From NCBI RefSeq assembly GCF_000019965.1, contig NC_010571.1, positions 3,729,001 through 3,793,000 on the forward strand: a stretch of 64,000 bases of DNA, given 5' to 3'. Position 1 is the stretch's first letter; each line of letters starts with the position of its first letter. The notes below the pieces were generated by a model. That model worked only from the letters and a program-made list of their open reading frames with translations, ran no database searches and was not told the origin of the DNA. Position numbers and translations under genes: made by a program. Shown one piece after another: positions 43,514-64,000 of this stretch. The stretch comes from Opitutus terrae PB90-1 (GTDB lineage: Bacteria > Verrucomicrobiota > Verrucomicrobiia > Opitutales > Opitutaceae).

Positions 43514-43564
43514 TGTAGCCGGCCTCGCTGAGGCCGGCTGCCGGGCTCAGCGAGCCCGGCTACA
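43514..43564. repeat. palindromic repeat family C, complete 51-nt copy
   Basis: TGTAGCC at the left and GGCTACA at the right form an outer stem. Between them are two hairpins, GGCCTC-GCT-GAGGCC and CCGGGCTC-AGC-GAGCCCGG, giving a cloverleaf-like fold. It sits between convergent genes (281-bp gap 43288-43568), where it could also terminate transcription. The rest of the gap holds GC-rich palindromic debris. Confidence 0.85.
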
Positions 43565-44688: not shown

Positions 44689-47600
44689 TCATGGAACCAC
44701 CCGCGTTTGGTAGGCTTCACGAATCCGGCGCTGCGCGTCGGTTTCGGGTGACCGCTCGCTGGCGGGATACGGATAGCGGCTCATTCCGCGGAACGGCATC
44801 GGCTCGAGCGTCTGCGGCGTGCCGGTGTAGAGGTCCATGTCCTTACAGTACGCGTGGGACACGAGCACGAAACTCCGCGTCATGCCCGTTGGCAGCGGCG
44901 GCAGCTGCGTGGCGTCGAACTTCGCGGCAATCTCATCGCCGGAGTTCATCAACGCGAACTGATCGTCGAACTCCGTGAGCAGCTCACGCACGTCGCCGTA
45001 GCGAGTATAAGAGCCGCGCAGTTGATGGAAGGGCGCCGTCGGCTCGATTTGCTGATAGTCGTAGATCAACGGCAGCCGGCCATCCGGCGAGACCTCCCGC
45101 GGAAATCCGACGTAGCGCAGTTCCGCGGCGGCGACGGGCAGCGCGTGCACGTGCACGCGTTCACGGGGCACGGGAATTCCCAGAAAAATCTGGTCGTAGA
45201 ACATCTCGAGGTTGGACGTCACCCGGAGCTGGCAGCCGGGGCCCGAAGTGATTAAGCCGGTCAGGTCCACTGTCATCGTGCGCGACATGCCGCCGAGCGC
45301 GCCGGCATCCGGCACGATCGTCCGCCACGAGCCGTCGGGTTGTCGCTGCTCCACGCGAATCGGTTCCCACGCCACGCTGGCCTGGCCAGCCGCGTAGGTG
45401 GTCTGCGAGTAGGGGTACTCGAGATAGCCCGTGATGAAGAGCCAAACGCGTTCGCCCGGCAAAACGGCGGCGAGGCGATCGCCGAAATCGAGTTCGAGGG
45501 TGTGGCGTTCGCAAAAACCGAAGAACCGGCGGTCGAGCACCGGCTCGAAGGCATAGCGACGATCGGCGCGGCGCAGGTGGTCCGTGCAATCGGCGCCGTC
45601 CGGGCCGACGGCGCGGTCCGGAAAGATCGGCCGCTCGATCGCGAGCAATTCGCGGGTGGGCGCGGGCCCGGTCACCGTCAGTCGCTCATCGGGGAAAACC
45701 GCCCAGCCGGCCGGATGATCGATGGCGAGGAGTTCGAGCCGGTCGACGTAGGCGCTTTCCTCCATCGGCTCCGTGATCCGCAGCTCGAAGAAACCGTTGC
45801 GCGCGCGCAGCTGTTCCGGCGCAATTTTCACGTGGTCGATCGGCTGCGGGAAAGAATACTCTCCGGGCGCGGCGAGATAGCCCATGCCGCCGACGCCCGC
45901 GAAATCGGTGATGAACTCGAAACGTTCTCCATTCCAGGTGAAGAGCACCGGACAGCTCGAGATCTTGCGCTGCGTCTCCGCGACAACGTGAGTGCGGCCG
46001 GCGACGAGCGGTTGCTCGACTTGCGCGACGCCGTCGGACCAGAGCAGCTTCACGTAGTCGGCGCGCGGCGCGCCCGAAAGTCCGAAGGTCAGCGGCAGCG
46101 GCGACTGGCAGAAACCGCCCGCCTGACCGGTGAGGAGCAGCGATTGCTCGTGCCGCCCGGCGCGGACGGTCACCGTCGCACCGTAGCCGCTGGCCGGGCT
46201 CCGGGTGCGTTTGTCGCGGCTACGAACGCCGGTGGGCGCGACGGCCAGCGCGCTGGATGCGGGCGACAGCACCCCCGGCACGAGCAACACGCGCGAAGCT
46301 GCGCCGCGCTCAAGCAGCAGAAGATCCGGCACAAGGTCGCCGGTCAGATCCGCCAGCTCGACCCCCGCGATCTCCGCGCCTGTCGCTGCGGTCCACACGC
46401 GCGGCTGCAGCGCGAACCGGCCGGCGCCATCGTTCAACAACAGGTGCCCCTCGCGACCGAAGGCGGCGATATCAAGATCGCCATCGAGATCGACATCGGC
46501 GACGCGGAAACCGCGGAGCGCTTCCAGCTTCGCATCGAACAGCTCGCTCGGCTGAAAATGCGCGTGTCCGTCGCCGGTGAAGAGCTGCAGCCGGGCGGGC
46601 TCGCCGCCGAGCACGAGCAGGTCGAGCAATCCGTCGCCGTTGAAATCCTGCACCACGCCGCCGAGATCGCCACGAATAGCGAGACCGCCGAGATCGGCGG
46701 CGCGAAACTTACCGGTGAGCTCGTTGAGCAAGAGCCTCGGCGGCGCGCTCGCGCGGAGCAGAACGAGGTCCGTGTCGCGGTCGCCATCGAGGTCGCCTGG
46801 CAAGACGAGCAATGAATCGCCTTCAGGTTCAGCGACGCCGGCGGTGGCGGCGATCTCGGTGAACGTGCCGTCGCTGTTGTTGTTGAAGAGCTGATTCGGT
46901 GCGCCTTGGTTGCACACGAATAAGTCGAGATCGCCGTCGTGATCGGCATCGAGCCAGAGCGCGCTGCGAGTCGTGCCGCCGCGAGCGGGTGGGGCGAGCG
47001 CGTCGGCGACGCGGACGAATGCGCCGTCGGCCGAGCCACGGAAGAGCGCATTGCCGCCGCTGGCGACGACGAACAGATCCGGCACCTCATCGTTGTCGTA
47101 GTCGCCGACGGCACAGGTGAGGGGCGCGTCGACACCCGTCAGCTCGGGAGGTGTTAGTGACTCTAGAATCTCTCCTTCAGGAGGAAGCTTGAGCCGCAAT
47201 GCGCGGGAATCAGGCCAGCCGGCGAGGAAGACGTAAGCCTGCCGGTGGCTGTCCGAAATCTTCGAAGCGGCCGCGCCACGTTCAGTGGATTGTTGGGGAC
47301 GCGACGCCCCCGTCGCGTTCGGCGGCGACGAGGGTGTCGCCGCCCCATCGTCTCGCGCCGGCGGAGTACCCTTCATCTCTGCCGCCTCTGGCTGGCGAAG
47401 GAGGATCGCGGCGCCGCCGAAAATCGCGGAGGGATCGCCCGACGTCGCTCCAGACTCCGATGCTGGGCTGGCGTGCGCCAGAATCTCCTGTGCGTGTCCG
47501 GCGCGGTAAAGCGCACGAGCGCGCGGCGCCGGTGGCGTGTCACCGACCGGAACGACCAACGCGAGTTCGCCCATCTGGTTGTATTGCGGGAGCTCGATGG

Positions 47601-48231
47601 TTTCGGCGAGCGGGTGCTCGCGGAGGCGCTTGAATTTTTCGAGGTAAGGCGCGGCGCGCTCAGTCTGTCCCGCCGCCTGCAGCGTCTGCCAAACCCGGTA
47701 ATAGGCGCTCGCGAGGTATGGCCGCAGCTCGATCGCGCGCAGCAGCTCTTTCTCGGCGTCCTGTCCGACGCGCTGCTTGCACAGGCCGAGGATGTACCAC
47801 GCGACCCCATCCTGGGGGCGCTGCTGCAACACCTGTTCGAAATACGGCAGCGCCTCGGCGGCCTGCCCTTGGTGCTGCAGGATGATGCCCTTGAAATACA
47901 ACGCGCGGAGATGCGCCGGCTCTTTTTGCAGCACGGACTCGAGCAGCCGTGTCGCTTGTTCAGTGTCCGCGCTTTCCTTGCGTCCGCGATTGAACCGCGC
48001 GATCGCGAGGTTTACCTTCACGTCGGCAAGATCGGGCACAGTGGCGAGTGCGTCTGCAAACGCCTGCGTCGCGCCATCGTAATCGTATTGGCCCATCAGC
48101 GCCACGCCGCGGTTGACGGCCTCGACGACGGCGGGGGGAGGCTGGGATGCGGCGGAGCGTGGGCGGCAGCCGGACGTGAACGCGACGATGACGGCAGCAG
48201 CGATCAACACGAAGAAAACGCGACGATTCAT
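44689..48231 (-). CDS. TPR and FG-GAP/VCBS lipoprotein with ASPIC/UnbV-like and large C-terminal domain
   Basis: I chose ATG 48231 (1180 aa, MNRRVFFVLI), which gives a lipoprotein signal with lipobox FTSGC. TPR repeats follow (about 45-225, AHLRALYFKGIILQHQGQAA). A low-complexity linker (about 240-330) contains a palindromic repeat at 295-313. FG-GAP repeats come next (VGDYDNDEVPDLF, DADHDGDLDLF, DLDGDRDTDLV, DFNGDGLLDLL, DVDLDGDLDIA). An ASPIC/UnbV-like segment (YGATVTVRAG) and a long beta-rich C-terminal domain start at CPVLFTWNGERFEF. Similar TPR-FG-GAP proteins occur in Acidobacteria and Verrucomicrobia without known function. An envelope scaffold or assembly role is plausible. Confidence 0.8.
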   Translation of the reverse strand: MNRRVFFVLIAAAVIVAFTSGCRPRSAASQPPPAVVEAVNRGVALMGQYDYDGATQAFADALATVPDLADVKVNLAIARFNRGRKESADTEQATRLLESVLQKEPAHLRALYFKGIILQHQGQAAEALPYFEQVLQQRPQDGVAWYILGLCKQRVGQDAEKELLRAIELRPYLASAYYRVWQTLQAAGQTERAAPYLEKFKRLREHPLAETIELPQYNQMGELALVVPVGDTPPAPRARALYRAGHAQEILAHASPASESGATSGDPSAIFGGAAILLRQPEAAEMKGTPPARDDGAATPSSPPNATGASRPQQSTERGAAASKISDSHRQAYVFLAGWPDSRALRLKLPPEGEILESLTPPELTGVDAPLTCAVGDYDNDEVPDLFVVASGGNALFRGSADGAFVRVADALAPPARGGTTRSALWLDADHDGDLDLFVCNQGAPNQLFNNNSDGTFTEIAATAGVAEPEGDSLLVLPGDLDGDRDTDLVLLRASAPPRLLLNELTGKFRAADLGGLAIRGDLGGVVQDFNGDGLLDLLVLGGEPARLQLFTGDGHAHFQPSELFDAKLEALRGFRVADVDLDGDLDIAAFGREGHLLLNDGAGRFALQPRVWTAATGAEIAGVELADLTGDLVPDLLLLERGAASRVLLVPGVLSPASSALAVAPTGVRSRDKRTRSPASGYGATVTVRAGRHEQSLLLTGQAGGFCQSPLPLTFGLSGAPRADYVKLLWSDGVAQVEQPLVAGRTHVVAETQRKISSCPVLFTWNGERFEFITDFAGVGGMGYLAAPGEYSFPQPIDHVKIAPEQLRARNGFFELRITEPMEESAYVDRLELLAIDHPAGWAVFPDERLTVTGPAPTRELLAIERPIFPDRAVGPDGADCTDHLRRADRRYAFEPVLDRRFFGFCERHTLELDFGDRLAAVLPGERVWLFITGYLEYPYSQTTYAAGQASVAWEPIRVEQRQPDGSWRTIVPDAGALGGMSRTMTVDLTGLITSGPGCQLRVTSNLEMFYDQIFLGIPVPRERVHVHALPVAAAELRYVGFPREVSPDGRLPLIYDYQQIEPTAPFHQLRGSYTRYGDVRELLTEFDDQFALMNSGDEIAAKFDATQLPPLPTGMTRSFVLVSHAYCKDMDLYTGTPQTLEPMPFRGMSRYPYPASERSPETDAQRRIREAYQTRVVP
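47294..47347. repeat. palindromic repeat family B inside a coding sequence (linker)
   Basis: The outer stem is TGGGG/CCCCA. Inside are ACGCGACG-CCCC-CGTCGCGT and GGCGGCGAC-GAGGGT-GTCGCCGCC. It is translated in frame as about 18 residues of Pro/Ser/Ala-rich linker in the 44689-48231 protein. Near-identical copies are at 50165-50218 (opposite orientation) and 59697-59746. Confidence 0.85.
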
Positions 48232-48240
48232 GAGGGAACC

Positions 48241-48290
48241 CATCGGTGTGACACAGAGATCACAGAGACAACGCAGGAGAACACGCACCG
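48241..48290. repeat. CAGAG-rich intergenic repeat
   Basis: The stretch reads GTGTGACACAGAGATCACAG followed by AGACAACGCAGGAG. It has the quasi-7/8-nt rhythm of a scattered intergenic repeat type known from several bacterial genomes. It lies in the 171-bp gap 48232-48402 upstream of the TPR-FG-GAP gene; the rest of that gap is GC-rich hairpin debris. Confidence 0.45.
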
Positions 48291-48402
48291 GTCGATGACT
48301 GTTGATGCGATTTGCCGCCCATCGGGCTCGTTGCGGACGAGGGCCCCGACACATCGGGGCGGGCTGTCCGCGCTCCCACGCAAGCGTGTTTCGCGAGCCG
48401 AC

Positions 48403-50115
48403 TCATGGCTCGAACTCGTTTCCGAAGTCGCGAAACGAGCAGTTGCACGGCGTGCGGAACAGCAGCACCCAATCCTCGGCGGTGGGCGTGCGATAACCGC
48501 CGGCGCGGAGCATACGCGCGTTGCGCATGCCGCCATCGCGCGGGCTGAACCAGAGCGGCTTGAGCTGATCCTTCAGGAGATCGCTCTTGATCGTGACGAT
48601 CCCGCCGTCGCGCACGTAGATCGCGGCGAGGTCGCCGTTCGGATTGCGCGCGGCAAACACACGCGGCGCAGCGTGGGCTGGCGCCTTCGGATGCGGCACC
48701 ACGCCTGAAACCAACTCGACCGCCGGCTCCAACTCCCACCAACGGATGCCGGTGAAAAAGTCGTAGAGGTGCCCGTAGCGCTCGAGCATCGTCATCGAAT
48801 CATCGCCGCGGCCGTTGAGCCAGCCGCCGCCGTGCTCGCTGTTGGCGCGTTCGCCGGTGGTCTGATAGCCGCCGGCGAGGCAGATTTCCCACGCGAGTCG
48901 GGCGCGGGTTTCAGCGGAGCGGGCAGGCGCGGTGCGGCTCTCGCCCCAGCCCTGCGGATAGTGATCCTCGTAGCCGTATTCCTCGTTGATCTGCGGGATC
49001 ACGCGGCCGGTCTGCTCCTGTTCGCGGCGGTTTTTGAGCATGAAGTCATAGCCGCCGTGTTCGTCCCAGGACTGATGCAGCGCAAAATCGGCCCACGGCG
49101 ATTTCCTGAAACGGAAATCATCGTGGCCGTGGGTCGATGTCAGGTGATCGTAAGGGTCCGCCTGTTTCACGAATGCGCCCATCCTCTCCGCCCACGCGTC
49201 GTCCCGGAACAGCCGATACTCGTTGGCCAGGTCCCACATCACATTGGCGTAGGCGCCGAAGCGGGCGATGGCGTAGCGATAGTAGCGCTGCTCGTCCACG
49301 CCGCCCATGCCGGACTTGCCGAACGGATCGACGCCGGGGCGGCTGCCATCGACGTAGAACACGACGGAAACCGCCATGTCCCGGGCGCGCGTTTCGGCGA
49401 GGAGCTTTTCCCATTTCTGCCAGTAGCCGACGTTGAACCTGCTCACGTCGAAGCCGGGCTGCTCGAGGCTCGCGGAGTTCGCGGCGACCCACGGTTCGAG
49501 CCGAAAAGTGAACTTGTCCGAAGGCTCCACGGGCTCGAACCACGTACGGCCATCCGCGACCCGGCCGGCCAGCGCCGCGCGGATACGCGTGATCTTGTGG
49601 AGATCGAGCCGCTCGATCGCGTCGCGGATCGTGGCGTCGTCCCAACCGGCGAGGAAGTAGGCGGTGGTGCCGTTCCAGAAAAAGCGCTCCTGGGTGCCTT
49701 CCCACTGGAAGTGACTCGGGTATTCGGGATCGAGCCGGACGAGGCCGCGGTTGCGCTGGTCGACGGCTTGGAATTGACCGCGGTGCTGCTGCGCGAAGCC
49801 GCCCTCGCGGTAGGTCACGGTGTAGTCGTACGCGCCCGGCTTCGCCGGCATGAAACGGATCCGGAAAACGCGGCCGTCGGCCGAATCGCAGAATCCGTCA
49901 ACGGCGATTGGAGTCTCGCCGGACAGGCCGAAGGTGCCTGCGACGGTGACGTCGGTGAACGGGTTGCCGCCGGTGGGCTGAGCAACGTGCAACGTCACCT
50001 CGACGAAGTCATAGCAGCCGACGCGGTCGGCCGACGCGGCGAATTCGACGCGCGGCGTGGCGGCGAAGGCGCTGAGGGCGAACGCGAGCGAGAAGGTGAA
50101 CAGGGCGGGTTTCAT
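48403..50115 (-). CDS. secreted DUF5060/DUF4038-type glycoside hydrolase-like protein
   Basis: The ATG at 50115 overlaps the previous stop (ATGA) and gives 570 aa with a signal peptide (MKPALFTFSLAFALSAFA). The N-terminal beta-sandwich (about 20-105, VEVTLHVAQPTGGNPFTDV, GAYDYTVTYREG) fits DUF5060. A TIM-barrel domain of DUF4038/GH140-like type follows (FFWNGTTAYFLAGW, YWQKWEKLLAETRARDM, ANVMWDLANEYRLF, VIPQINEEYGYEDH), with Glu in NEY and NEEYGYE as likely catalytic acids. A short C-terminal beta domain ends it. It probably cleaves a plant-type polysaccharide side chain. Its tight coupling to a periplasmic binding protein gene is unusual for a hydrolase. Confidence 0.82.
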   Translation of the reverse strand: MKPALFTFSLAFALSAFAATPRVEFAASADRVGCYDFVEVTLHVAQPTGGNPFTDVTVAGTFGLSGETPIAVDGFCDSADGRVFRIRFMPAKPGAYDYTVTYREGGFAQQHRGQFQAVDQRNRGLVRLDPEYPSHFQWEGTQERFFWNGTTAYFLAGWDDATIRDAIERLDLHKITRIRAALAGRVADGRTWFEPVEPSDKFTFRLEPWVAANSASLEQPGFDVSRFNVGYWQKWEKLLAETRARDMAVSVVFYVDGSRPGVDPFGKSGMGGVDEQRYYRYAIARFGAYANVMWDLANEYRLFRDDAWAERMGAFVKQADPYDHLTSTHGHDDFRFRKSPWADFALHQSWDEHGGYDFMLKNRREQEQTGRVIPQINEEYGYEDHYPQGWGESRTAPARSAETRARLAWEICLAGGYQTTGERANSEHGGGWLNGRGDDSMTMLERYGHLYDFFTGIRWWELEPAVELVSGVVPHPKAPAHAAPRVFAARNPNGDLAAIYVRDGGIVTIKSDLLKDQLKPLWFSPRDGGMRNARMLRAGGYRTPTAEDWVLLFRTPCNCSFRDFGNEFEP

Positions 50116-51752
50116 TTCGTGATGCAACTGTGGTTTGGCGACACACCGACTGAAGGAGGTGTGATGGAGCGGCGCCGCCCTCGTCGCCGGTGAACGCGAC
50201 GGGGGCGTCGCGTTCCCATTAGTCCGCTGATAGTGGCGACGTCGGTGACCGTGTCGCTCGTCGGTGGCGGGTTGAGCGCCGCCACCACGCCGGCGCGGAT
50301 CGTGCCGAGCCGAAGATCGGCGCGGCGATTTTGGCCGGTGCCATCGAACGAAATTGGGCCGGCGATGCCGATCCACGGGCTGAACTGGACAAGGGCTTCG
50401 CGGATCCGCGCGCGGTTGGGGCCGGCGCGACGGATCGAGGCGATGAGCAGCCGGGTGGAATCGTAGGCGAGCGCCGCCGCGTAGTCGGGCTCGTGATGGC
50501 GCGCCGCGAGGAAGCGGGTGGTGAAACGGGCCGTTGCTTCGTCCCGCGCGTCGAGCGCGAAGAGGAGCGGGAACCGCACGCCTTCGGCCGCCGGGCCGGC
50601 GAGTTCGACAAAACGGGTGCGCCCCATCGCGGGGCCGCCGACCACGGGAATGTTGCCCAGTTGCTCGCGCACCGTGCGGACCAGCCGCGCGGAGTCCGGC
50701 GCGTTGGCGATCACGATCACCGTGGCGGGATGCGACGAACGGACACTGCGCAACGGCTCGGTCGCGTCTGGCACGTCGGGAGGCAGATCGAATCGAAACT
50801 CCGGCAGTCGGCCGCGACGGGACAGTTCACGCATGACCTCGCGGGCGGCCGCGCGAGATTCGTGGTCGGTCGTCGCGAGCAGGACGAGAGGGGACTTGCG
50901 ATTGCCGGATGCCGAATGCCGATTGCCGGCGGGCGTTGGGGTATTCCCTACCGAGTTCGGTCGTGGTCGGCTGGTGATCGCCGGGGCATCGGTGGTTGAT
51001 CGATCCGCGTCGGAGGCCGCGGCGAGAACATCGTCGACGAGCACGCGGGCGACGGCCGTGTCGTCGGGCGCGCAGGAAAACATCCAGGCGACACCCGCGA
51101 GCGTCGCGGTCTTGTCGGTCGCGATAGGACTGATGAGCGGTAGCTGGGCCTTTGCGACGATCTGTTCGGCCAGGTGCGTGGACGCAGAATCGACTGAGCC
51201 GATCAGTGCCAGCGGTTGCTCGTCGTAGACCATGCGCGCAAGCAGCGAGACTCCCGCGCGCCACGGATCCGGCGCCCAACACGGCACGAGCCGGATGGGC
51301 AGCGCCGCAAACGCCGAAGGTTCGGCCGGCGTTGGATGGTGGTTGGCGTCTTCGACCGCGAAATTGGCGGCCCACCAGAAGTCGCCGTGCAGCGGATCGG
51401 CGGTGTCGCTTGGTCCGAACCAGCCGAGGCGAATTTCCCGGAGGTCGGTGAAATCCTCGGCGACGCCATGGTAGCCGAGCGTGGTGTCGCGCAAGCGGAA
51501 GTAGGGATCGGGCGCGGGGGTGGGCGGCTGAGCGGACTGAGCGGCGGACAAGCTGCTCGCGCATGCGACGAGCACGAACAAGAGCGAACACCAGCATGCG
51601 GTCAGCAGGCGCCTCGAGAAAAACGAATCGCGCGATTGGAGGATCAAGGGTAGGGCGCACTCTCCGAGCGCGCCGCGAGGGATCGTCGGTGAGCACGGCG
51701 GGCTCGGAGAGCTCGCCCTACCTTCAGCACAGCTGTCGCAAACGCCGTTCAC
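50112..51752 (-). CDS. type-I periplasmic binding protein (branched-chain amino acid/PQQ-system type) with three repeat insertions
   Basis: The GTG at 51752 overlaps the stop of the preceding gene (GTGA) and gives 546 aa. A hydrophobic signal segment lies at about 49-70, far from the start because a palindromic element encodes residues 10-35. The mature protein is a two-lobed type-I binding fold: IRLGWFGPSD, FWWAANFAVEDANHH, LIGSVDSASTHLAEQIVAKAQLPLISPIATDK, IPVVGGPAMG and IAGPISFDGTG. A heptanucleotide repeat adds residues 275-286, and a second palindromic element encodes 512-529 at the C-terminus. No permease or ATPase gene is present. Proteins like this accompany PQQ-dependent dehydrogenase systems; the ligand is unknown. 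Confidence 0.8.
   Translation of the reverse strand: MNGVCDSCAEGRASSPSPPCSPTIPRGALGECALPLILQSRDSFFSRRLLTACWCSLLFVLVACASSLSAAQSAQPPTPAPDPYFRLRDTTLGYHGVAEDFTDLREIRLGWFGPSDTADPLHGDFWWAANFAVEDANHHPTPAEPSAFAALPIRLVPCWAPDPWRAGVSLLARMVYDEQPLALIGSVDSASTHLAEQIVAKAQLPLISPIATDKTATLAGVAWMFSCAPDDTAVARVLVDDVLAAASDADRSTTDAPAITSRPRPNSVGNTPTPAGNRHSASGNRKSPLVLLATTDHESRAAAREVMRELSRRGRLPEFRFDLPPDVPDATEPLRSVRSSHPATVIVIANAPDSARLVRTVREQLGNIPVVGGPAMGRTRFVELAGPAAEGVRFPLLFALDARDEATARFTTRFLAARHHEPDYAAALAYDSTRLLIASIRRAGPNRARIREALVQFSPWIGIAGPISFDGTGQNRRADLRLGTIRAGVVAALNPPPTSDTVTDVATISGLMGTRRPRRVHRRRGRRRSITPPSVGVSPNHSCITK
50165..50218. repeat. palindromic repeat family B inside a coding sequence (C-terminus)
   Basis: This is the reverse-complement match to the element at 47294-47347, with the same ACGCGACG/CGTCGCGT hairpin (50194-50213). 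It is translated into a basic tail (MGTRRPRRVHRRRGRRR) at the end of the binding protein, whose stop then overlaps the next gene's ATG. Confidence 0.85.
50894..50928. repeat. heptanucleotide tandem repeat inside a coding sequence
   Basis: The units ACTTGCG, ATTGCCG, GATGCCG, AATGCCG, ATTGCCG run in tandem. On the coding strand they give GNRHSASGNRKS. The insertion lies in a linker between the two lobes of the binding protein. Confidence 0.75.
51649..51722. repeat. palindromic repeat family F inside a coding sequence (before signal peptide)
   Basis: Twenty-seven-base arms (51649-51675 and 51696-51722) pair with three mismatches; they begin GGTAGGGCG and end CGCCCTACC. The element is translated as residues 10-35 of the binding protein at 50112-51752, between start codon and signal peptide. 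Confidence 0.85.
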
Positions 51753-53365
51753 TGCGCCCTCGCGACCTCGCGCTCGGCGCGGGGTTTTTCGATCACCGTG
51801 CCGCGCGGAATGCCGAGATCGTCGCGCGAATGGTAGACCCATTTGCCGCCCTCCCGGATCGCAAGGAAAACTTCACCGGCGTCGTCCATCGCGGAGCTGA
51901 GCGGGATCTCGCCGGTGATGCCGTGGAACGGTTCCGTGCGGTAAGCGATCAGATCGCGGATCTTCGCGCGGTTCAGACCGGCATTCTGGATGGCCCAGAT
52001 CAGCATGTTGGTGCCGTCGTAGGCATGAGCGGCGTAGGTGTCGGCCTCCGCGTCCCACCGTTTTCGGAACGCTTCGCGGAAGGCCTCGAGCTTCGGATCC
52101 TGGCGCTCGGGATTCCACGGGTACGCGCAGACGACGCCCTCGGCGTTGGCGCCGGCGATCTCGAGGAATTCATCGGTGACCGCACGGTCGCAGGTGAGGA
52201 ACGGCTGCTTCCAACCGCGGGCGCGGATCGCGTTGAGCACGCGCGCGGCGTCGTCGCCGTTGCCCCAATGAAAGATCACGTCCGGCTTGTACTCGGCGAT
52301 GCGGTCGAGCTGCAGCGTGAAATCGGTGGCGCCGCCCCTGTAGGCCATTTCGATCACGCTCGGTCGACCCATGCGGCGGCAGCTGTCGCGAATCTCGCGC
52401 ACGCCGAAACGCCCGTAGCGGTTGCTCGAGCGGATGATGCAGGGACGCTGGTAGTCCATCTTGCGGAGGGCGTAGTCGACGAGGAGGTAGTTGAGCTGAC
52501 GGTCGTCACCAATGCAGCGCATCACCCACGGAATGTTGGTCTCGATGTAGGTGGGATCGAGGTCGCCGGGAGTCATCCAGGGGATTTCGATCTTGAGCGC
52601 GACCCGGATGGCGATGTGAGTATTGGCGCCGTCGATGCCGCCGATGATGGCCCAGACGCCGTCCTTGTAGGCCATGTCGACAACCTCGCTGCCGGACGCG
52701 CCCCAGAGCGCGTTGTCGTTGTGCACGGCGAGCTCGAACGGCACGCGGCGCTTGAGATAGCCGCCCTGCGCGTTGGCCTCCTCGATGGCGAGCGTGGCGG
52801 CGCGCATCATCGCGACGCCGAGTTTTTCCTCATTGTGACTCTTGCCGCCCGTGGCGACGGAGACGGTCGGCTTGATGGGGCCGAGAAAGCCGATCTTCAC
52901 CGAGTCCACGTGCTCGGGTTCGGGAAGGCCGCGGCCCGCGCCGGCGTATTCCATCTGGAGCAGAAAGTGCTCCTTGTAAGGCTTCACGCCACCGTAGGGC
53001 TCCACGTCGGCGGAGGACTTCGCGTAATTTTCGTTCTGCTTCAGCGGCAGCGTGGGCTGCCGGTAGTAACCGGTGTCGAGCTGCGGCAGGATGGCGGCAG
53101 CGGCGGGATCGGGGGTGGCAACGGCGGCAGGCGTGGACGCATCGGCGGCGGAGGCGCAGACCGGTGCAAGGACCAGTGCGATCAAACTGAGACTCGCGGC
53201 GATGGTGTGGAGGCTGCGGAAAAAAGCAGCCTGGATGGCACGGGCATCCTGACCGTGTGGACGCATGGAGTTTTCTGGGAGGATTGCGGCGCGGAGCGCC
53301 GTCCGCGGGCGGGGCGCCCATGCCCCGGTGCGTGTTACGGATTCGGTAGCGTGATTCGTGTTCAT
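51749..53365 (-). CDS. type-I periplasmic binding protein (branched-chain amino acid ABC type)
   Basis: I chose ATG 53365 (538 aa, MNTNHATESV), which has AAGGCG upstream; a GTG at 53380 would overlap the previous stop (GTGA). Residues 13-43 come from a palindromic repeat. The hydrophobic signal segment is at about 51-73 (LHTIAASLSLIALVLAPVCA). The mature protein has the type-I fold: VKIGFLGPIKP, AATLAIEEANAQGGYLKRRV, IIGGIDGANTHIA, RSSNRYGRFGVREI, PDVIFHWGNGDDAARVLNAI and HAYDGTNMLIWAI. Its stop overlaps the next binding protein gene. With no permease nearby, it may be a receptor for a sensor protein rather than a transporter part. Confidence 0.85.
   Translation of the reverse strand: MNTNHATESVTRTGAWAPRPRTALRAAILPENSMRPHGQDARAIQAAFFRSLHTIAASLSLIALVLAPVCASAADASTPAAVATPDPAAAAILPQLDTGYYRQPTLPLKQNENYAKSSADVEPYGGVKPYKEHFLLQMEYAGAGRGLPEPEHVDSVKIGFLGPIKPTVSVATGGKSHNEEKLGVAMMRAATLAIEEANAQGGYLKRRVPFELAVHNDNALWGASGSEVVDMAYKDGVWAIIGGIDGANTHIAIRVALKIEIPWMTPGDLDPTYIETNIPWVMRCIGDDRQLNYLLVDYALRKMDYQRPCIIRSSNRYGRFGVREIRDSCRRMGRPSVIEMAYRGGATDFTLQLDRIAEYKPDVIFHWGNGDDAARVLNAIRARGWKQPFLTCDRAVTDEFLEIAGANAEGVVCAYPWNPERQDPKLEAFREAFRKRWDAEADTYAAHAYDGTNMLIWAIQNAGLNRAKIRDLIAYRTEPFHGITGEIPLSSAMDDAGEVFLAIREGGKWVYHSRDDLGIPRGTVIEKPRAEREVARAQ
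53236..53327. repeat. palindromic repeat family A inside a coding sequence (before signal peptide)
   Basis: This is a diverged copy of the element at 58846-58937, in the same orientation. It starts TGGCACGGGC, has a central GGCGCGGAGCGCC hairpin and ends GGGCGCCCATGCCCCGG. It is read in the same frame as the copy in the ASPIC/UnbV gene, giving similar peptides (ALRAAI against ALCAAI, HGQDARA against HGRDARA). Confidence 0.8.
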
Positions 53366-53376
53366 CGCTTCGCCTT

Positions 53377-54570: not shown

Positions 54571-54613
54571 GGAGGCGCTGGGGATGGAGAGGAGCGGGCG
54601 TCGTACGAACCGG

Positions 54614-57079: not shown

Positions 57080-57101
57080 GCTGGAGAGGGATGCGGTGCG
57101 T

Positions 57102-58994
57102 TTACTTCCGGACGGTTGCTGGTGCCGGAATCGCGGACTCCGGCCGGCTGGGCTCAGCGTGCGCGGCTCCATCGTCGGTACCGTGTTTCACCGTCAGAAT
57201 CTGGTCGGCCATCACGTCGGTGAGCTTCTGGCGCGTGCCGTCGGGCCAACGAATCTCGACCGAGTCGGCCGCGGTGGCGTCGCCCAGTCCGAAGTTGGGC
57301 CGCGGATCGCTGGCGGTGAGGTAGCCATTGGTCGCGAGGACGGGCTGGATCATCGTCAGCCCTCCGGCCTTGACCGTTACCGTGGCATTGAGCGCGATGA
57401 GGCCGGTGTCGGCGCGGAGCGGCGCAAGCTTCAGCCAGTGGCGCGCATTGCCGCCATCGTTGCGCAGCACGCGCGGCAAATCGCCGATGACGTTCATCAC
57501 GATGTCGAGATCGCCGTCGTTGTCGAAGTCGGCAAACGCGGCGCCGCGGCCCACGTATTTGTGATTGAAGAAGTCGCCGGAAACGCGCGCCATGTCGACG
57601 AACTTGCTCTGGCCGTCCCAGCGGGCGATGACCGCTTCCTCGACGTAGGTGTGATGCGGGTCGCCGTTGGCGATGAACAGATCGGCGTAGCCGTCGTTGT
57701 CGTAGTCGTTGAGCAACCCGCCCCAACCGGTGTATTGGCCACAAAGCACCGCGACCCCGGACTGCGCCGTGACATCGGTGAAAAAGCGCGGCTGTTTCTG
57801 CAGCATCAGCGAGCTGTAGCCCATGTCGGGCACGAGGATGTCGAGCCGTCCATCGCGATCGACGTCGGCCACGAAGGGCCCCATCGACGAGACGCCCTGA
57901 CCGCCTTCGCCGAAGGCGGTGTTGGTCTCCATGCCCTGGTCGGTGAAATGACCGCGTCCGTCGTTGATCCAAAGGTTGTTTGGCATGGCGTCGTTGGTGA
58001 CGTACAGATCGACGTCGCCATCGCCATCGAGATCGCAGGCCACCGCGCCCATGCCGCGGCCGGTGGGTTCCCACAACCCGGTCGCCTCGGTGACGTCGGT
58101 GAAGGTGCCATCGCCGTTGTTCCGATACAGATGATCCGGCAGGCCGGGATAGGAGAGCGGCCCGGGAAAGTTGTCGGCCTTGTAGTAGGCGCCCGTGCGC
58201 TGGAAGGCGCCCTTGTCGTAGTCGAGGTAGTGAACGACGAACAGGTCGAGCCGGCCGTCGCCGTCGTAGTCGAACCACGGCGCCGCCAGGCTCCAGCCGG
58301 GGCTGAGCACGCCGGCCTTCTCGGTCACGTCCGTGAACGTGCCGTCGCCGTTGTTGTGATAGAGAAGGTTGCTGCCGTAGTTGCAGACGTAGAGGTCGAG
58401 GTGACCGTCGTTGTCGTAGTCGGCCGCCGATGCGGCCATGCCGTAACTGTCGACGCGGCCGGCGACGCCGGCGGCCGCGGTGACATCGGTAAAGGTGCCG
58501 TCGCCGTTGTTGCGATAAAGCGCGTTGGCGAGCTTGCCCTTCAACGAGCGGCCGCGGTTGTCGCTGACGTCCGGATGCCAACGACCGTTGACGAAGTAGA
58601 CGTCCATCAGGCCGTCGTTGTTGTAGTCGAAGACGCAGCAGCCGGGCCCGGTGGCCTCGACGATGTTGTTCAACTCGAGGTCGCCGTAGCCGTGTTTGAA
58701 CGCGATGCCCGCGGATTCAGTGACGTCGGTGAACTGGGGCCAGGGCGCGGATGCGGCGAGGACCAAGGGCGCGGTCAAAATTGCGAAGGCCACCATCGTG
58801 GTGAGAGCGAACGTTGGCTTCCCAAGCCTGCGCGCCTGGTCGGTGGTGGCACGGGCGTCCCGCCCGTGCCGGGCCATGGGAATGTTGCCCATGATGGCGG
58901 CGCAGAGCGCCGCCCACGGGCGGGACGCCCGTGCCACGAGATGCACCATCCTGAAATCGAGAGGTTCGCCGGTCGTCGTGATCGTCGTATTCAT
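57102..58994 (-). CDS. secreted FG-GAP/VCBS protein with ASPIC/UnbV domain, repeat inserted before signal peptide
   Basis: The ATG at 58994 overlaps the previous stop (ATGA) and is preceded by GGAGG with 9-nt spacing, so this start is well supported (630 aa). Residues about 19-50 derive from a palindromic repeat, and the hydrophobic signal segment follows only at 67-83 (MVAFAILTAPLVLAASA). The mature protein has FG-GAP calcium loops (VFDYNNDGLMDVY, DYDNDGHLDLY, DYDGDGRLDLF, DLDGDGDVDLY, DVDRDGRLDIL, DYDNDGYADLF, DFDNDGDLDIV) and a C-terminal ASPIC/UnbV domain (NFGLGDATAADSVEIRWPDG). Translation of the insert might affect export. An alternative is re-initiation at the internal ATG codons. Confidence 0.88.
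   Translation of the reverse strand: MNTTITTTGEPLDFRMVHLVARASRPWAALCAAIMGNIPMARHGRDARATTDQARRLGKPTFALTTMVAFAILTAPLVLAASAPWPQFTDVTESAGIAFKHGYGDLELNNIVEATGPGCCVFDYNNDGLMDVYFVNGRWHPDVSDNRGRSLKGKLANALYRNNGDGTFTDVTAAAGVAGRVDSYGMAASAADYDNDGHLDLYVCNYGSNLLYHNNGDGTFTDVTEKAGVLSPGWSLAAPWFDYDGDGRLDLFVVHYLDYDKGAFQRTGAYYKADNFPGPLSYPGLPDHLYRNNGDGTFTDVTEATGLWEPTGRGMGAVACDLDGDGDVDLYVTNDAMPNNLWINDGRGHFTDQGMETNTAFGEGGQGVSSMGPFVADVDRDGRLDILVPDMGYSSLMLQKQPRFFTDVTAQSGVAVLCGQYTGWGGLLNDYDNDGYADLFIANGDPHHTYVEEAVIARWDGQSKFVDMARVSGDFFNHKYVGRGAAFADFDNDGDLDIVMNVIGDLPRVLRNDGGNARHWLKLAPLRADTGLIALNATVTVKAGGLTMIQPVLATNGYLTASDPRPNFGLGDATAADSVEIRWPDGTRQKLTDVMADQILTVKHGTDDGAAHAEPSRPESAIPAPATVRK
58846..58937. repeat. palindromic repeat family A, complete copy inside a coding sequence
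   Basis: Perfect 23-bp terminal inverted repeats lie at 58846-58868 and 58915-58937. Each contains its own hairpin CACGGGCG-TCC-CGCCCGTG or its complement. The centre holds CCATGGGAATGTTGCCCATG and GGCGGCGCAGAGCGCCGCC hairpins. It is read in frame near the N-terminus of the 57102-58994 protein. Confidence 0.9.
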
Positions 58995-61042
58995 TTTACG
59001 TTTCCTCCGTTCGTGCTTTCTGCCACTGCGGTCGTCGCGGGCGCCGCGTCGTACTGTGCGCCGAGGTCGATCCACAGAATCACGGTGCGAAGATCGTCGG
59101 CGCTGAGCCGAGCTGCGGATGGCGGAACCTTGGTTCGTGCGGTGGCGTCCCACGGCCGTGACGTATTGCGGCCCGTGAGTTGCCAGATGAGCCGGCTGGT
59201 GCGCGCGCGACCGGGTTCGACAAGTGCGTCGGGTCCGTGGGTGATCGTTTCGTAGGCCGCGGCGACACCGGCCGGCGTGTCGAGCGCGAGCGGCAATGGC
59301 TGCAGCTGCGCATCGCGGAGAGCGGAGGCGGGCAGCCGCTGGAGAATCGGCGCGACGTCGTGCGCGAAGGTCACGCGACGGCGCTCCGCGACGGGCGGGA
59401 GGAGCGGGACCGAGTCGTGGTGCAACGCCAGGACGAACTTGTTTTCGGGCACGCGCTCGGGGTCCTCGTGGCAACCGATGCAGCCGCGCTTCTCCTTCGG
59501 CTTCACCCAAAACCACCCGCACGTGCCGAGCGCGAAGCCGTTTTCGTCGACCGTTTGGAGCAGAAGCGGCGTATCGGAAGGTACGAAGAGATTGAACGAG
59601 CCGTCGCTTTCGACGGCCGCCTCGCCGATCAGCCGGCGTGGCATGACGGGCGAAGTGGGCGCGGTGGCGGGGTTGGTCGCCTGGAGACGCGGCGCCTGGG
59701 GACGCGACGCCCTCGTCGCGTTTGTCGCCTTCGTCGCGTCCATGGGTTTCGATTGACCTTCCTGCACGCCCGCGGGCGAGACGCCCGTGCCCCGTCGAGA
59801 GTCTGGCAGGCCTTCGATGATGCGCACGCGCTTCACCTCGCCGGGCTGCAGGTGGCCGGCGCGCGCGGCGTCGGTCGTGTAGCAGTCGAGTCCGTAAAGC
59901 GTGCCGTAGTCGGCTTTGCTCACGACGACCGTCGAATGTCCATCCGGCGAAGGTCGCGGTTTTACGAGCACCGCCTGGACCTCGTCGAAGTCCCCCATGT
60001 CGAAAACCGACTCGCTGCGGCCCGTCGTTGCGTCGAAGGCGACGATGCCCCACGTGGCCTTCGCCCGGTGTGGCCGCTGCGCGACGAGCACGCGATTGCC
60101 GCCGAGCGGCGAGGGGTGCGCATAGACGAAGTCGGCGTCGTTGGTCAGCGATCGATAAGTGAGGTGCGGCCGCCGCTGCTCCACGCATGCGAGCTGACCC
60201 GAGCCATCCGCGGTGGGCTGGTCGGATTCGACAAACACGAGCAGTCCGTCCGCCGTCGGACATGGCGTCCGCTGAATCCGCCGTCCGAGTTCGCCGCCGT
60301 AGCGCTCCATGTCGGCGCCTTCGATGTGAATGGCATACAGCCCGACCCGGCCCGGCTCGGCGGAAGCGTCGTTCGCGTAGCGTTCGGCGGCGTAAATCAC
60401 GCGGCCGTCCCACATCTGCACCGGATCGAGATTGTAGTTTGGATTGTAGGTGAGCCGGCGCAGCTCGGTGCCATCGAGCTTCACGTCGTAGAGGTTCGAG
60501 ACCGACGGCCGGCCCGTTTCGCTGACGGTGCTCTCGCGGGCGACGAACAGGACCGTGGGCCACGGCTGCGGCGACTCGAGCGTGTTCAAAACCGACACAT
60601 GAATCGGCTGCCGGGCGTCGAGTCCCTCGGGGGAAACCGGGCGGAGATTCGTACCGTCGAGGCCGATCTCCCAAATTCGGAAGGGTTCGCCGCGCGCTTG
60701 CTGGCCCGCGAAGATCACGCGCTGGCCGTCGAACGAGAGGTTCGGATCGCACGCCGATGCGAAGCCGGCCGAGAGGACGCGCACATTGCCGTCGGTCGAA
60801 ACCATCACCAGCCGCGCGCCGTCGAATCGGTCCCCGGGCGCGAGGTCATTTGCGTGTGGGTTGGAGGCCGGCCGTGCGGCATTCGCCGGCACCTGCGTTA
60901 CGATGATGGGCGTTTCGAGTCGCGCCGCGCCGAATGCCGCTGCGGCGGCGCTCGCGAGCAACGCGACGGCGGCCATGGCGGGCAGTCGGCAGGCGAGGCG
61001 TCCGGGAATCGTGCAGCGGGCCACCTGGTTCGTCGGAGTCAT
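58991..61042 (-). CDS. secreted PD40-propeller, hydrazine-synthase-alpha-like protein with one c-haem motif
   Basis: This 683-aa protein has a signal or anchor segment (about 20-42, LPAMAAVALLASAAAAAFG). A PD40/TolB-like propeller follows (NLSFDGQRVIFAGQQARGEP, WEIGLDGTNLRPVS, LYDVKLDGTELRRLT, HPSPLGGNRVLVAQ). A linker encoded by palindromic repeats lies at about 416-449. The C-terminal part carries one c-haem motif CIGCH near 521 (KPKEKRGCIGCHEDPE). This layout resembles the alpha subunit of hydrazine synthase and its many non-anammox homologues. The second haem usually found after FAHDVAPIL is absent here: the stretch reads ILQRLPASALRDAQL with no CxxCH. It overlaps the ASPIC/UnbV gene by 4 nt. 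Confidence 0.8.
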   Translation of the reverse strand: MTPTNQVARCTIPGRLACRLPAMAAVALLASAAAAAFGAARLETPIIVTQVPANAARPASNPHANDLAPGDRFDGARLVMVSTDGNVRVLSAGFASACDPNLSFDGQRVIFAGQQARGEPFRIWEIGLDGTNLRPVSPEGLDARQPIHVSVLNTLESPQPWPTVLFVARESTVSETGRPSVSNLYDVKLDGTELRRLTYNPNYNLDPVQMWDGRVIYAAERYANDASAEPGRVGLYAIHIEGADMERYGGELGRRIQRTPCPTADGLLVFVESDQPTADGSGQLACVEQRRPHLTYRSLTNDADFVYAHPSPLGGNRVLVAQRPHRAKATWGIVAFDATTGRSESVFDMGDFDEVQAVLVKPRPSPDGHSTVVVSKADYGTLYGLDCYTTDAARAGHLQPGEVKRVRIIEGLPDSRRGTGVSPAGVQEGQSKPMDATKATNATRASRPQAPRLQATNPATAPTSPVMPRRLIGEAAVESDGSFNLFVPSDTPLLLQTVDENGFALGTCGWFWVKPKEKRGCIGCHEDPERVPENKFVLALHHDSVPLLPPVAERRRVTFAHDVAPILQRLPASALRDAQLQPLPLALDTPAGVAAAYETITHGPDALVEPGRARTSRLIWQLTGRNTSRPWDATARTKVPPSAARLSADDLRTVILWIDLGAQYDAAPATTAVAESTNGGNVK
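59697..59746. repeat. palindromic repeat family B (partial) inside a coding sequence
   Basis: TGGGGACGCGACG followed by CCCTCGTCGCGT repeats the left half of the 47294 element, with the hairpin at 59702-59721. The right half is degenerate. It encodes ATKATNATRASRPQ in a linker of the 58991-61042 protein. Confidence 0.75.
59768..59794. repeat. palindromic repeat family A (one arm) inside a coding sequence
   Basis: GCCCGCGGGCGAGACGCCCG followed by TGCCCCG matches the right arm of the complete element at 58846-58937. It encodes RRGTGVSPAG, directly next to the family B fragment in the same linker. Confidence 0.7.
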
Positions 61043-61390
61043 AGAGTGGGAAAATGGTTTGGGCGCGCGGCCAAACCCTGCGGCGCGCTCCCGGCGCTAA
61101 TCGGGCGGAGCAGCGGGCCTAATGGCCGGGATCCGGGGCCGCCCGTCGTCGCGTGCACCGCGAATTTCGACGTGTGCGTCCGATCTGCTGGGCAGAACAT
61201 TTGGGGTCAACGTGATGCTGACGGCCGAAAATCCGTAGCACCAGTCGCGTGTGGCGAAACGACGCCGGCGCGGGGCGAATGGTGCAGGTGAGACGGTTGC
61301 AGGAGGTGGGCGAACTGCGGTTGAGGTCCCCGTGGGATGGCATTTCGCCCGTGTCGGTCGCGTGCGCGGCGTGCGTGCGAAAGGCGGGCC

Positions 61391-61433
61391 GGAGCGCCGT
61401 CCACGCGCGGGACGCCCGTGCCACACGAGCCGG
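61391..61433. repeat. palindromic repeat family A, right half
   Basis: GGAGCGCCGTCCACGCGCGG followed by GACGCCCGTGCCAC aligns well with the right half of the 58846-58937 element, including the GAGCGCC hairpin remnant. The left half is missing. Confidence 0.7.
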
Positions 61434-61457
61434 AGTGCGGCCGAGGAAGGGTGCGAA

Positions 61458-61508
61458 TGTAGCCGAGGTCGGTGACCTCGGCGGCCGGGCTCAGCGAGCC
61501 CGGCTACA
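61458..61508. repeat. palindromic repeat family C, complete 51-nt copy
   Basis: It has the same length and plan as 43514-43564: TGTAGCC/GGCTACA outer stem, inner hairpins CCGAGGTC-GGT-GACCTCGG and CCGGGCTC-AGC-GAGCCCGG. It begins 28 bp after the stop of the ASPIC/UnbV gene at 61536. Confidence 0.85.
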
Positions 61509-61535
61509 ACCATGGAACGAATCGCGAACGGCGCG

Positions 61536-64000
61536 TCACGGCGCGCGCAGCCGCAGCACGGCCGGCACGTTCACGTCGACTTCCTGGGTTGTCGTCTCAC
61601 CTGATGGCCAGCGCACGCGCACGCGACGCGGCGGATTTTCTGCGGTGAAACCGAAAAACGACGCGGCCGTCGACTGGCTCGAAAATCCCGAGACGGCGGT
61701 GATCTCTCCGCTTTGCGCGAACCCGTCGGCGTGCTCGAGCGTGACCACGGCGCCGACGGCGTGCGGATTGCCAGGCGGACCTTGCAACACTACGCGCAAC
61801 GAGTGCCGGCTCGCGACGCCGCGATTGCGAAACGCGAGCGTCGTGTCGTTATTGCGCGTCACCAGAAAATCCGGCCAGCCGTCGGCATCGAGATCGAGCA
61901 CGGCCAGCGCCTTGGCATCGCCGGGCACCACCAGCCCGCTGGCGCTCGGCGGGACCGGTGCAAAGTGCCCCTGGCCGTCGCCGCGGAGGAACTGGCTCAG
62001 GCCGCCATCGAACCGGCCGATCGCCGGCGCCGGAGCATAGGAATTTTGCGCCACGTAGAGATCTGCGCGGCCGTCGCCGTCGAAATCCCCCGCGACAAGT
62101 CCGTTCGCCGGCGCGATCTGGGCGAGGTTGGGCCAGGGCTCGAACCGATATCGGCCATCCGGCCCGCTCAGCAACACACCGCTGCGCAGCTCCGTCGCCG
62201 CGAACCGGGTCGCGCTCGCGAGCCGGTCTTCACCGAGAATTTCCGGCAGCGTCGCGCGCGCATAGTCGTTATTCGCGCGATAACGCCGGAACACCGCGGG
62301 AATCGCGGCGCCCAGGTCCGTGCGGCTGCGTCGCGGATACAGGCGGCCGTTCTCGTCGTACGCTTCCACGATCTCCGGTGAACCGCGACCGGCGAAATCG
62401 CCGGTAAACAGAAGCGCGGGATGACCGGCATCCGCGCGATACGGCGTGTTCAATCCGAGATTGCCGACCGCGTAGTCGGGCCGGCCGTCGCCGTTGAAAT
62501 CCGCCGTCGCGATCGCGCGCCACCAGCCGGTGCCCGCGGCGGCGAATCCGAGCTGCTCGGTCCAGTCGGAAAAGGTCCGGCCGGCTTCATTGTGAAAACA
62601 CTTCACCGCGCCCCATTCGAGCGCGACCAGCAGGTCGGGCCAGCCGTCGGCGTCGACGTCGCTCCAGAGTGCGGCCGTCACCATGCCCACCGCGCGCAGG
62701 TTCGGCGCGACGGAGTCGGTCACGTCTTCAAACCGGCTACCGCGGTTGGCGAGCAGTGCGCTCGGCGGCGTCGCCGGGTACAACCCCGGTGAAACACGAC
62801 CACCGACGAACACATCGAGCCGACCGTCGCGATCGAAGTCGGCGGTGCAAGCCGCGCCGGCGCTGATCGCGAATTCCGGCAATGTGCCCGCGGGCGCGGG
62901 CGCAAAGCGGCCATGACCGTCGTTCAGGAAGAGTCGTGACTGATATTCCGGCGCACCCGCGGGCGCGCTCGTGCCGCCGGCGGTGACGAGCAGGTCGTCG
63001 TCGCCGTCAGCGTCGGCGTCGAACAGGAGCAGCGGACCGTCGTTGACCGCCGGTGGTTCAGTGAGTGCGGGTGATTCGACACGCGTCCACGTGCCCGACG
63101 CGTCAGGCCGCAGAATCTTCAGCGGCTCGCGCGTCGTGCCGCCGAGACACACGCTGTCGCGTCCGCTGCCATCCAGATCGCCCACGGCGAGTGCGGGGCC
63201 GCGACGGTTCAGTCCGAACGGCAGCAGCCGCTGGTCGAGGAATTCGTCGTAAGGTTCCTCGGGCGCCGCCCACGAGAGACCGACGGTGGTGCTAATCTCA
63301 TGAAATTGTGGGATGGGTGTAGCCGGGCTCGATGAGCCCGGTCCATCATTCGTCAGCGAGGTGGCTGGCTGGCCGGGGTCAGCGACCCCGGCTACACCTG
63401 CGCCAGGCTCCGTGATCGTCAGCCGCTGGTCTGCGACCACGTTTTCGAACACCTGCACCGCGCCGCTCGGCCAGTGCACCGTCAGCCGGCGTATCGCGGT
63501 TTCTTCGCCGAGCCCGAAATGCGCGATGGGCTCGCTGCTCGACATGAACCCGCGCGCCAGCGTGAGCGCCCGGACCTGCACGCCGGCGTCGGTCTCGAGC
63601 GTAAGCGTGGCGCCGATTCCGAATCGGTTGCTCCGCGTGCCGCGCAACACGCAGATCACGCGATGACCGTTGTCGCTGTCGTTGCGCAGCAGCGTGGCGC
63701 CCGCCTGATAGTTCGCGTAGAAGAGATCGAGATCGCCGTCGCCATCGAGATCGCCGAGCGCCGATCCGAAGCTGACCCCGACGTGATCCAGCCCCCACGC
63801 GGCCGAAACGTTTTCGAACCGCAGCTCGCCGAGATTCCGGAAAACGTAGTTCGATTCCGCCAGCACCGGACTGCCGCGCGTGATCTGACCCGCGATCGCG
63901 ATGCTCGCCGCCGAGCTGCGGCGCGCGATCAGGTCCTGGTTGTGGATCTCCCGATACATGCCGTTCGTCACGTGGAGGTCGACGCGGCCGTCGTTATCCA
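61536..64000 (-). CDS. FG-GAP/VCBS protein with ASPIC/UnbV domains, 5' end outside window
   Basis: The frame is open to the window edge and reads DNDGRVDLHVTNG there, a calcium loop, so the gene continues upstream. At least 821 residues are seen. The order is FG-GAP repeats, a first ASPIC/UnbV domain (GTRSNRFGIGATLTL ... HFGLGEETAIRRLTVHWPSG), a linker containing a family C palindromic element, a second set of FG-GAP repeats (DLDGSGRDSV, DADADGDDDLL, DFDRDGRLDVF, DVDADGWPDLL, DFNGDGRPDYA, DFDGDGRADLY) and a second ASPIC/UnbV domain (FFGFTAENPPRRVRVRWPSG). The two-module layout matches long CRTAC1-like proteins. It likely heads or belongs to the operon running to 43569. Confidence 0.88.
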   Translation of the reverse strand, partial: DNDGRVDLHVTNGMYREIHNQDLIARRSSAASIAIAGQITRGSPVLAESNYVFRNLGELRFENVSAAWGLDHVGVSFGSALGDLDGDGDLDLFYANYQAGATLLRNDSDNGHRVICVLRGTRSNRFGIGATLTLETDAGVQVRALTLARGFMSSSEPIAHFGLGEETAIRRLTVHWPSGAVQVFENVVADQRLTITEPGAGVAGVADPGQPATSLTNDGPGSSSPATPIPQFHEISTTVGLSWAAPEEPYDEFLDQRLLPFGLNRRGPALAVGDLDGSGRDSVCLGGTTREPLKILRPDASGTWTRVESPALTEPPAVNDGPLLLFDADADGDDDLLVTAGGTSAPAGAPEYQSRLFLNDGHGRFAPAPAGTLPEFAISAGAACTADFDRDGRLDVFVGGRVSPGLYPATPPSALLANRGSRFEDVTDSVAPNLRAVGMVTAALWSDVDADGWPDLLVALEWGAVKCFHNEAGRTFSDWTEQLGFAAAGTGWWRAIATADFNGDGRPDYAVGNLGLNTPYRADAGHPALLFTGDFAGRGSPEIVEAYDENGRLYPRRSRTDLGAAIPAVFRRYRANNDYARATLPEILGEDRLASATRFAATELRSGVLLSGPDGRYRFEPWPNLAQIAPANGLVAGDFDGDGRADLYVAQNSYAPAPAIGRFDGGLSQFLRGDGQGHFAPVPPSASGLVVPGDAKALAVLDLDADGWPDFLVTRNNDTTLAFRNRGVASRHSLRVVLQGPPGNPHAVGAVVTLEHADGFAQSGEITAVSGFSSQSTAASFFGFTAENPPRRVRVRWPSGETTTQEVDVNVPAVLRLRAP
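63318..63396. repeat. palindromic repeat family C with spacer, inside a coding sequence
   Basis: TGTAGCC (63318-63324) and GGCTACA (63390-63396) bound two hairpins, GGGCTC-GAT-GAGCCC and CCGGGGTC-AGC-GACCCCGG. An extra spacer of about 28 nt separates them. It is in frame in the linker between the two ASPIC/UnbV modules. Confidence 0.8.

Follow-up and report, generated by a model that had tools for sequence, protein, structure and literature searches.

The palindromic repeats that lie in frame in a gene cluster of Opitutus terrae PB90-1 are very probably REPs and REPINs, non-autonomous hairpins spread by tyrosine transposases of the RAYT (TnpA-REP) type. This reading is supported by their high copy number, the tags of families B and C, their head-to-head pairs, RAYT genes flanked by three of the families and empty sites in relatives. 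In-frame REPs of O. terrae are already known, as the available text of Di Nocera et al. (2013, PMC3733652) shows, and what we describe is ordinary in kind and well documented: the species has already been singled out for this known mobile repeat, and one of its gene clusters is densely populated with it. Two features of these repeats, the frames in which they are read and a heptamer array that accompanies them in genes, go beyond that text. Our analysis centred on a 64,000-nucleotide stretch of the genome (the window), an earlier reading of which, made from its letters alone (the sequence-only reading), had drawn attention to the inserts.

Results

Repeat families of the O. terrae genome

Families B and C are GTGG- and GTAG-tagged REPs, respectively, that occur as single units or as REPIN pairs (Table 1). 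Both are high-copy short palindromes and count as GTAG REPs by copy number and by tag. The family B core has about 291–313 genome sites (313 at up to 3 mismatches, against 4 for the reversed pattern) and family C has 147 (against 0 for the reversed pattern); as copies far exceed the reversed controls, these repeats are not due to chance. The sequence-only reading, which had made its case depend on further copies elsewhere in the genome, is borne out by the hundreds found. With up to 4 mismatches allowed, 128/158 family B units have GTGG heads and 80/90 family C units GTAG heads, counts that are partly built in because the search patterns contained the tag letters. In family A, the base before TGG is A in 25 units, C in 13, G in 4 and T in 3 (those with the ten commonest heads, 45/77 units). 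Having no conserved GTAG or GTGG tag, family A was not filed as a GTAG REP; it probably spreads in the same way as the tagged families.

Head-to-head pairs with heads outward, the REPIN arrangement, number 37 for B, 19 for C, 12 for D and 11 for A, and single units are also frequent (53 for B, 26 each for C and D). When folded, 5/6 window elements beat all 200 shuffles. The exception is the degenerate B pair at 53235, which has no significant fold (z -0.42, with 60/200 shuffles equally good). A common plan of terminal inverted repeats around smaller hairpins had been ascribed to families A, B, C and F; it fits B (58846), C and F, but not A, which folds as two side-by-side hairpins. Three generic k-mer families (G1, G2 and G3) were dropped since their counts do not clearly exceed those of reversed controls (133 vs 114, 151 vs 164 and 302 vs 352), as was a pattern (H) without matches.

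Table 1. Repeat families, window elements with the genes that hold them, heptamer arrays and RAYT genes (window positions unless marked as genome or sample)
Feature	Position	Strand	Remarks
Family A			hairpin TGGRGACGCGACGCCCTCGTCGCGTC; without clear GTAG tag
Family B			consensus GTGGCACGGGCGTCCCGCCCGTG; GTGG-tagged REP
Family C			consensus GTAGCCGGGCTCGCTGAGCCCGGC and stem variants; GTAG-tagged REP
Family D			GTAGGGCCGGCGCTCGCCGCCGGCC; present elsewhere in O. terrae genome
Family F			GTAGGGCG...TCC...CGCC; rare
Family C pair, GTAG outward	43515..43563	.	intergenic; 0 mismatches in both units; fold z -8.75
TPR + FG-GAP + UnbV_ASPIC gene	44689..48231	-	Pfam; A pair in variable linker
Family A pair	47294..47347	.	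reads GAATPSSPPNATGASRP; fold z -4.02
Periplasmic-binding-protein-like open frame	50112..51752	-	Pfam PF13458; REPs near both ends
Family A unit	50193..50218	.	C-terminal extension of 50112 frame
Family F pair	51650..51721	.	fold z -6.39
Periplasmic-binding-protein gene	51749..53365	-	Pfam PF13458; B pair in possible leader
Degenerate family B pair	53235..53326	.	possible leader; 4 mismatches in each unit
FG-GAP + UnbV_ASPIC gene	57102..58994	-	Pfam; B pair in leader
Family B REPIN	58846..58937	.	0 mismatches in both units; fold z -9.65
Hydrazine-synthase-alpha-like gene	58991..61042	-	PF18582; A+B insert in linker
A unit + B unit	59697..59793	.	reads RGTGVSPAGVQEGQSKPMDATKATNATRASRPQ
Family B unit	61402..61424	-	intergenic; 1 mismatch
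Family C pair	61459..61507	.	intergenic; 0 mismatches in both units
FG-GAP + UnbV_ASPIC gene	61536..63998	-	Pfam; window end cuts gene
Family C REPIN	63319..63395	.	reads VAGVADPGQPATSLTNDGPGSSSPAT; fold z -6.67
(CTCTCAA)n arrays	44591-44631; 14515-14543		also in sample loci L005, L050, L063, L104
RAYT	2530456 (genome)		over NF047646 cut-off; C REPs both sides
RAYT	3173317 (genome)		over NF047646 cut-off; D both sides
RAYT	5903724 (genome)		over NF047646 cut-off; identical inverted F-like pair both sides

Elements in the window

Repeats were present wherever the sequence-only reading had placed them, including the intergenic copies at 43515, 61402 and 61459. Its claim that they lie in frame in at least six genes was only partly sustained, since the window holds three inserts inside genes, two in leaders, one C-terminal extension and one element that is likely upstream of its gene. 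The inserts at 47294, 59697 and 63319 each lie within a single open gene with conserved domains on both sides, the last of them in a Pro/Ala/Thr linker. Around the A pair at 47294, the stretch is longer than in the aligned G034 and G055 orthologues and unconserved, and the 60 codons on each flank score as non-coding; owing to this variable region, the pair is a likely insert, not an exactly placed one. The A unit at 50193 forms a C-terminal tail, and the aligned relatives from G055 and G034 stop before it. The F pair at 51650 probably lies upstream of the true start of the 50112-51752 gene, which the gene finder places at 51581.

The leader B pairs at 53235 and 58846 may each be part of a long translated leader or may precede an internal start. 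The gene finder starts the 51749-53365 gene at 53185, past the B pair, and the first residues of two relatives (L179 and L180) align at or after the end of the pair. The 57102-58994 gene is started by the gene finder at 58994, with the B pair included, and GGAGG shortly precedes this upstream ATG; the aligned relatives L173–L175 begin after the pair. Because the relatives of both genes begin at the signal peptide, the B pairs in O. terrae may or may not be translated; if translated, the pair at 58846 reads VARASRPWAALCAAIMGNIPMARHGRDARAT. A reading in which both pairs follow a start codon shared with relatives, which had leaned on the similar first residues M-N-T, M-K-T and V-N-T, was dropped because the starts of the relatives align at or after the pair ends.

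Relatives

As judged from alignments within a search of 61 genomes of the family (O. terrae included), relatives share the insert-bearing genes but lack the inserts. The 58991 protein has matches in 8 other genomes of the 61, and the 59697-59793 insert is absent from 6/6 relatives aligned. The nearest of them, in G034, is 55% and 75% identical on the two sides and is back in register past the insert; the three most distant share 27–35% identity. The linker of the 61536 protein is shorter in 3/3 aligned orthologues (L161–L163). Residues conserved in distant orthologues would have spoken against insertion, and the aligned relatives lack the inserts.

Family B sites occur in 19/61 genomes and family C sites in 20/61 (O. 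terrae included in both), with a family B maximum of 344 sites in G005. No B site occurs in G034, G055 or G029, none of which has more than 3 C-like sites; G003, placed in the same genus as O. terrae, has zero B and zero C sites. The gene cluster at 44689-63998 encodes FG-GAP/UnbV_ASPIC proteins, a hydrazine-synthase-alpha-like protein and two periplasmic binding proteins, and the six of its genes that we examined keep their order in G034 and G055.

Genes that carry REPs

We sampled 140 stretches of 20 kb (2.8 Mb, 47% of the genome), comprising 100 evenly spaced stretches, with the window-overlapping one omitted, and 40 neighbours, all within the first 2.4 Mb; genes were predicted with our own codon model. 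The sample contained 372 units in 243 elements, of which 178 were intergenic, 43 internal to genes, 7 near a C-terminus and 1 near an N-terminus, while 6 overlapped a gene end and 8 lay too close to a stretch end. That 43/243 are internal although 85% of the sequence is coding indicates strong depletion from genes, not absence. The internal share of single-family elements was 13/40 for A and 13/98 for B, against 11/42 and 4/39 for the GTAG families C and D; with no consistent difference between families, the idea that the GTGG tag, which holds no TAG stop, causes REPs to lie in genes was dropped.

The 37 sampled genes with internal REPs were scanned with Pfam, and all except 2 had a family at 1e-8. 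Identified from Pfam and some solved homologues, they include FtsY, FabH, FolP, RF3, DNA polymerase III alpha and a pol III alpha-like protein, two UvrA, RecD2, Tex, a NuoG-like protein, CobW, an AcrB-type transporter, five glycoside hydrolases of different families, a TonB receptor and two FG-GAP proteins. One of the UvrA genes (L073) holds two REP pairs, which fits the two O. terrae uvrA genes with double inserts described in the available text of Di Nocera et al. (PMC3733652).

Some of these observations lend themselves to another explanation, in which the in-frame elements are mostly annotation artefacts whose genes are broken or have their true start past the REP. The F pair at 51650 (predicted start 51581) is likely such a case, the two leader B pairs may be others, given the predicted start of the 51749-53365 gene and the starts of the relatives of both genes, and the available text of PMC3733652 gives the same caution for N-terminal REPs. 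Moreover, 5 of the 31 listed internal elements, including the A pair at 47294, have flanks of 60 codons that score as non-coding on at least one side. However, both flanks score as coding in one frame for the other 26. In FtsY, FabH, FolP, RF3 and UvrA (5/37 genes compared, with solved homologues), conserved sequence picks up again in frame past the insert, and the REP lies where the alignment has a gap or is weak, with conserved parts on either side. The nearest relative of the 58991 protein likewise continues on both sides of its insert, and even the leader pair at 58846 has GGAGG before the upstream ATG. We judge artefacts unlikely as the general explanation. The inserts may exceed the REP in length (about 54 residues in FolP and about 47 in RF3), so REPs are not the whole story.

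The inserts could instead be a regulated feature of envelope proteins that gives surface variation, as the six genes of one cluster that carry or adjoin them, several with exported-protein domains, might suggest. Nevertheless, only 9/37 hit genes looked secreted by a crude home-made signal-peptide rule, fewer than the 37% that gene length would predict (P 0.13), and the sampled census thus shows no excess. Many of the hit genes belong to cytoplasmic families. We reject the view that in-frame REPs are specific to secreted or envelope proteins, which is not supported, and regulated surface variation is a very improbable account of them.

Local density

The segment 47294-63396 holds 9 elements with 17 units, or 8 and 16 if the C-like unit at 57147 is left out, which is doubtful (4 mismatches) but counted among the units. 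Across 2400 sliding windows of the same length in the 2.8 Mb sampled from the same genome, the mean was 1.28 elements and 1.87 units and the maxima were 7 and 9; none equals the segment, which was itself picked for looking dense and is compared here with 47% of the genome. The earlier impression of an unusual density in envelope proteins is upheld as to density against the sampled windows, and a special link to the envelope is not supported. For in-gene elements alone, the segment (6, with 57147 counted) is tied by the L005/L105 stretch, also with 6. We propose that the same process formed a local hot spot here, the gene cluster being one in which several linkers tolerate inserts.

In the sample, a helicase-like gene with DUF3418 (L005:9932-14569), presumably HrpA, carries five REP elements (A, B and D) and two heptamer arrays in an open frame.

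Frames and peptides

The frames in which REPs are read in genes avoid arginine-rich peptides, mainly in family A. More than one open frame is available to 35 of the 46 internal elements (43 sampled and 3 from the window). Arginine makes up 0.107 of the used frames against 0.212 in a random open frame (0/20,000 permutations as low), and Gly/Ala/Ser/Thr/Pro make up 0.666 against 0.540. With one element per gene (29 elements), the bias persists at P 0.00025 for arginine and 0.00045 for Gly/Ala/Ser/Thr/Pro. Hydrophobic content of the internal elements is the same in used and random frames. The bias comes chiefly from family A (P 0.00015) and is not significant in family B alone (P 0.17). Family C contributes 3 usable elements, most C elements being uninformative because they have a single open frame, and family D contributes 4; B, C and D all lean in the same direction. 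As a control, the gene finder accepted A and B inserts in every frame at 0.86–1.00, with the lowest acceptance for a frame favoured in the data, so the finder is not the cause of the bias for A and B.

If the insertion reaction favoured one codon phase, the bias would look identical without any selection on the peptide, and the strength of the bias in family A is what a family-specific target rule would give. Against this, the nine bases on each side of the elements share no obvious motif by eye, and the direction recurs in B, C and D. We regard an insertion preference as possible but on balance doubtful, and favour selection on the peptide. The frame choice is beyond the available text of PMC3733652, and among the entries listed in our search of the open literature, neither titles nor abstracts dealt with frame choice or (CTCTCAA)n in O. 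terrae.

Heptamer arrays

A second repeat, (CTCTCAA)n, is enriched in REP-bearing genes, which is likewise beyond the available text of PMC3733652. The sample and window hold 84 arrays, against 2 for a shuffled unit; reversed CTCTCAA is a rotation of the same unit, which leaves the shuffled unit as the sole valid control. Sixteen arrays lie in genes, 16/16 in the same direction, and read as SQLSTLNSQ-like peptides. REP-bearing genes, with 3.65% of coding length, hold 11 of these 16 (P 6e-13); counted by gene, the figure is 7/11 (P 2e-8). Arrays are generally not near REPs: 7/84 lie at a distance of 150 bp or less, as do 12% of intergenic positions drawn at random.

RAYT genes

The sequence-only reading had suspected a RAYT-like transposase elsewhere in the genome, and three genes over the NF047646 cut-off were found, each flanked by REPs (Table 1). 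Pfam Y1_Tnp matches four places in the O. terrae genome and NF047646 has seven matches, three of them over its cut-off. In these three sequences we see what we take to be the HxH motif and its downstream Tyr. At 5903724 the outer ends of the F-like pair lie 94 bp before and 70 bp after the match, and these flanks have the head and TCC loop in common with the window F, while their stem letters differ. Two further matches (5390128 and 5390385) are pieces of one gene in different frames, and this RAYT-like gene (5390128-5390519) is apparently decayed; the match at 4968656 is a fragment.

Among the RAYT matches read in the O. terrae genome, which do not include the fragment at 4968656, none has A or B units close by; the C-flanked RAYT is separated by more than 1 kb from an A-like hairpin. 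Among relatives of the C-flanked RAYT, 25/38 named loci have two or more GTRG-headed hairpins and 12/38 at least one C-like head. Two or more GTRG-headed hairpins occur in 6% of random 1200-bp O. terrae stretches, a rough background because the loci are 1146–1695 bp long and come from other genomes. A RAYT match in G059 (C59:97737-98042) has B units on both sides, in the same orientation, at 97444 and 98059 (locus C59:97444-98081), and is a candidate transposase of family B.

Discussion

We propose that the RAYT binds the folded single strand of a REP, and that it would cut near the GTAG guide and join the hairpin to new single-stranded sites. Copies landing in genes would mostly be lost; the survivors may be in-frame copies free of stops that occupy a linker or tail and encode a mild peptide of Gly, Ala, Ser, Thr and Pro. 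Under this proposal, a mild in-frame linker peptide would leave the protein working.

The closest precedent is the same kind of element in the same species. In its available text, PMC3733652 reports more intragenic GTAG repeats for O. terrae than for any other species, along with a GTGG variant tag (GTAG-20); beyond that text, we add this gene cluster, the frame choice and the (CTCTCAA)n arrays. Pseudomonas fluorescens REPINs (Bertels and Rainey 2011, PMC3116915) are, in the available text, likewise inverted REP pairs that form one hairpin, with families beside RAYTs, but they were studied in extragenic space, whereas 43/243 sampled O. terrae elements are inside genes. The comparison with Rickettsia RPE, made in the sequence-only reading, is also in print: as cited in the available text of PMC3733652, RPE are palindromes in frame in genes of proteins thought to work, a likeness by description, and R. 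conorii RPE-4 and RPE-6 are there placed among CGTC repeats said to lack a dedicated transposase. As in RAYT/TnpA-REP systems (available text of PMC8266576; NF047646), O. terrae has three genes over the cut-off with REP flanks, HxH and a downstream Tyr, features known here from sequence; in contrast to those systems, families A and B lack a neighbouring RAYT among the matches read in the O. terrae genome.

Tentatively, certain insertion-prone housekeeping genes (helicases, UvrA, DNA polymerase III alpha and RF3) may repeatedly gain in-frame REPs and (CTCTCAA)n, with selection keeping linker-like frames, so that the repeats would supply new protein linkers. What merits further work is the frame filter and the hot genes that both repeats share. 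Annotators should treat predicted N-termini made of REP peptides with caution. REP-coded segments in essential-type enzymes of a cultured bacterium offer a test bed for how proteins gain linkers from mobile DNA, and the same genes a test of which frames selection permits.
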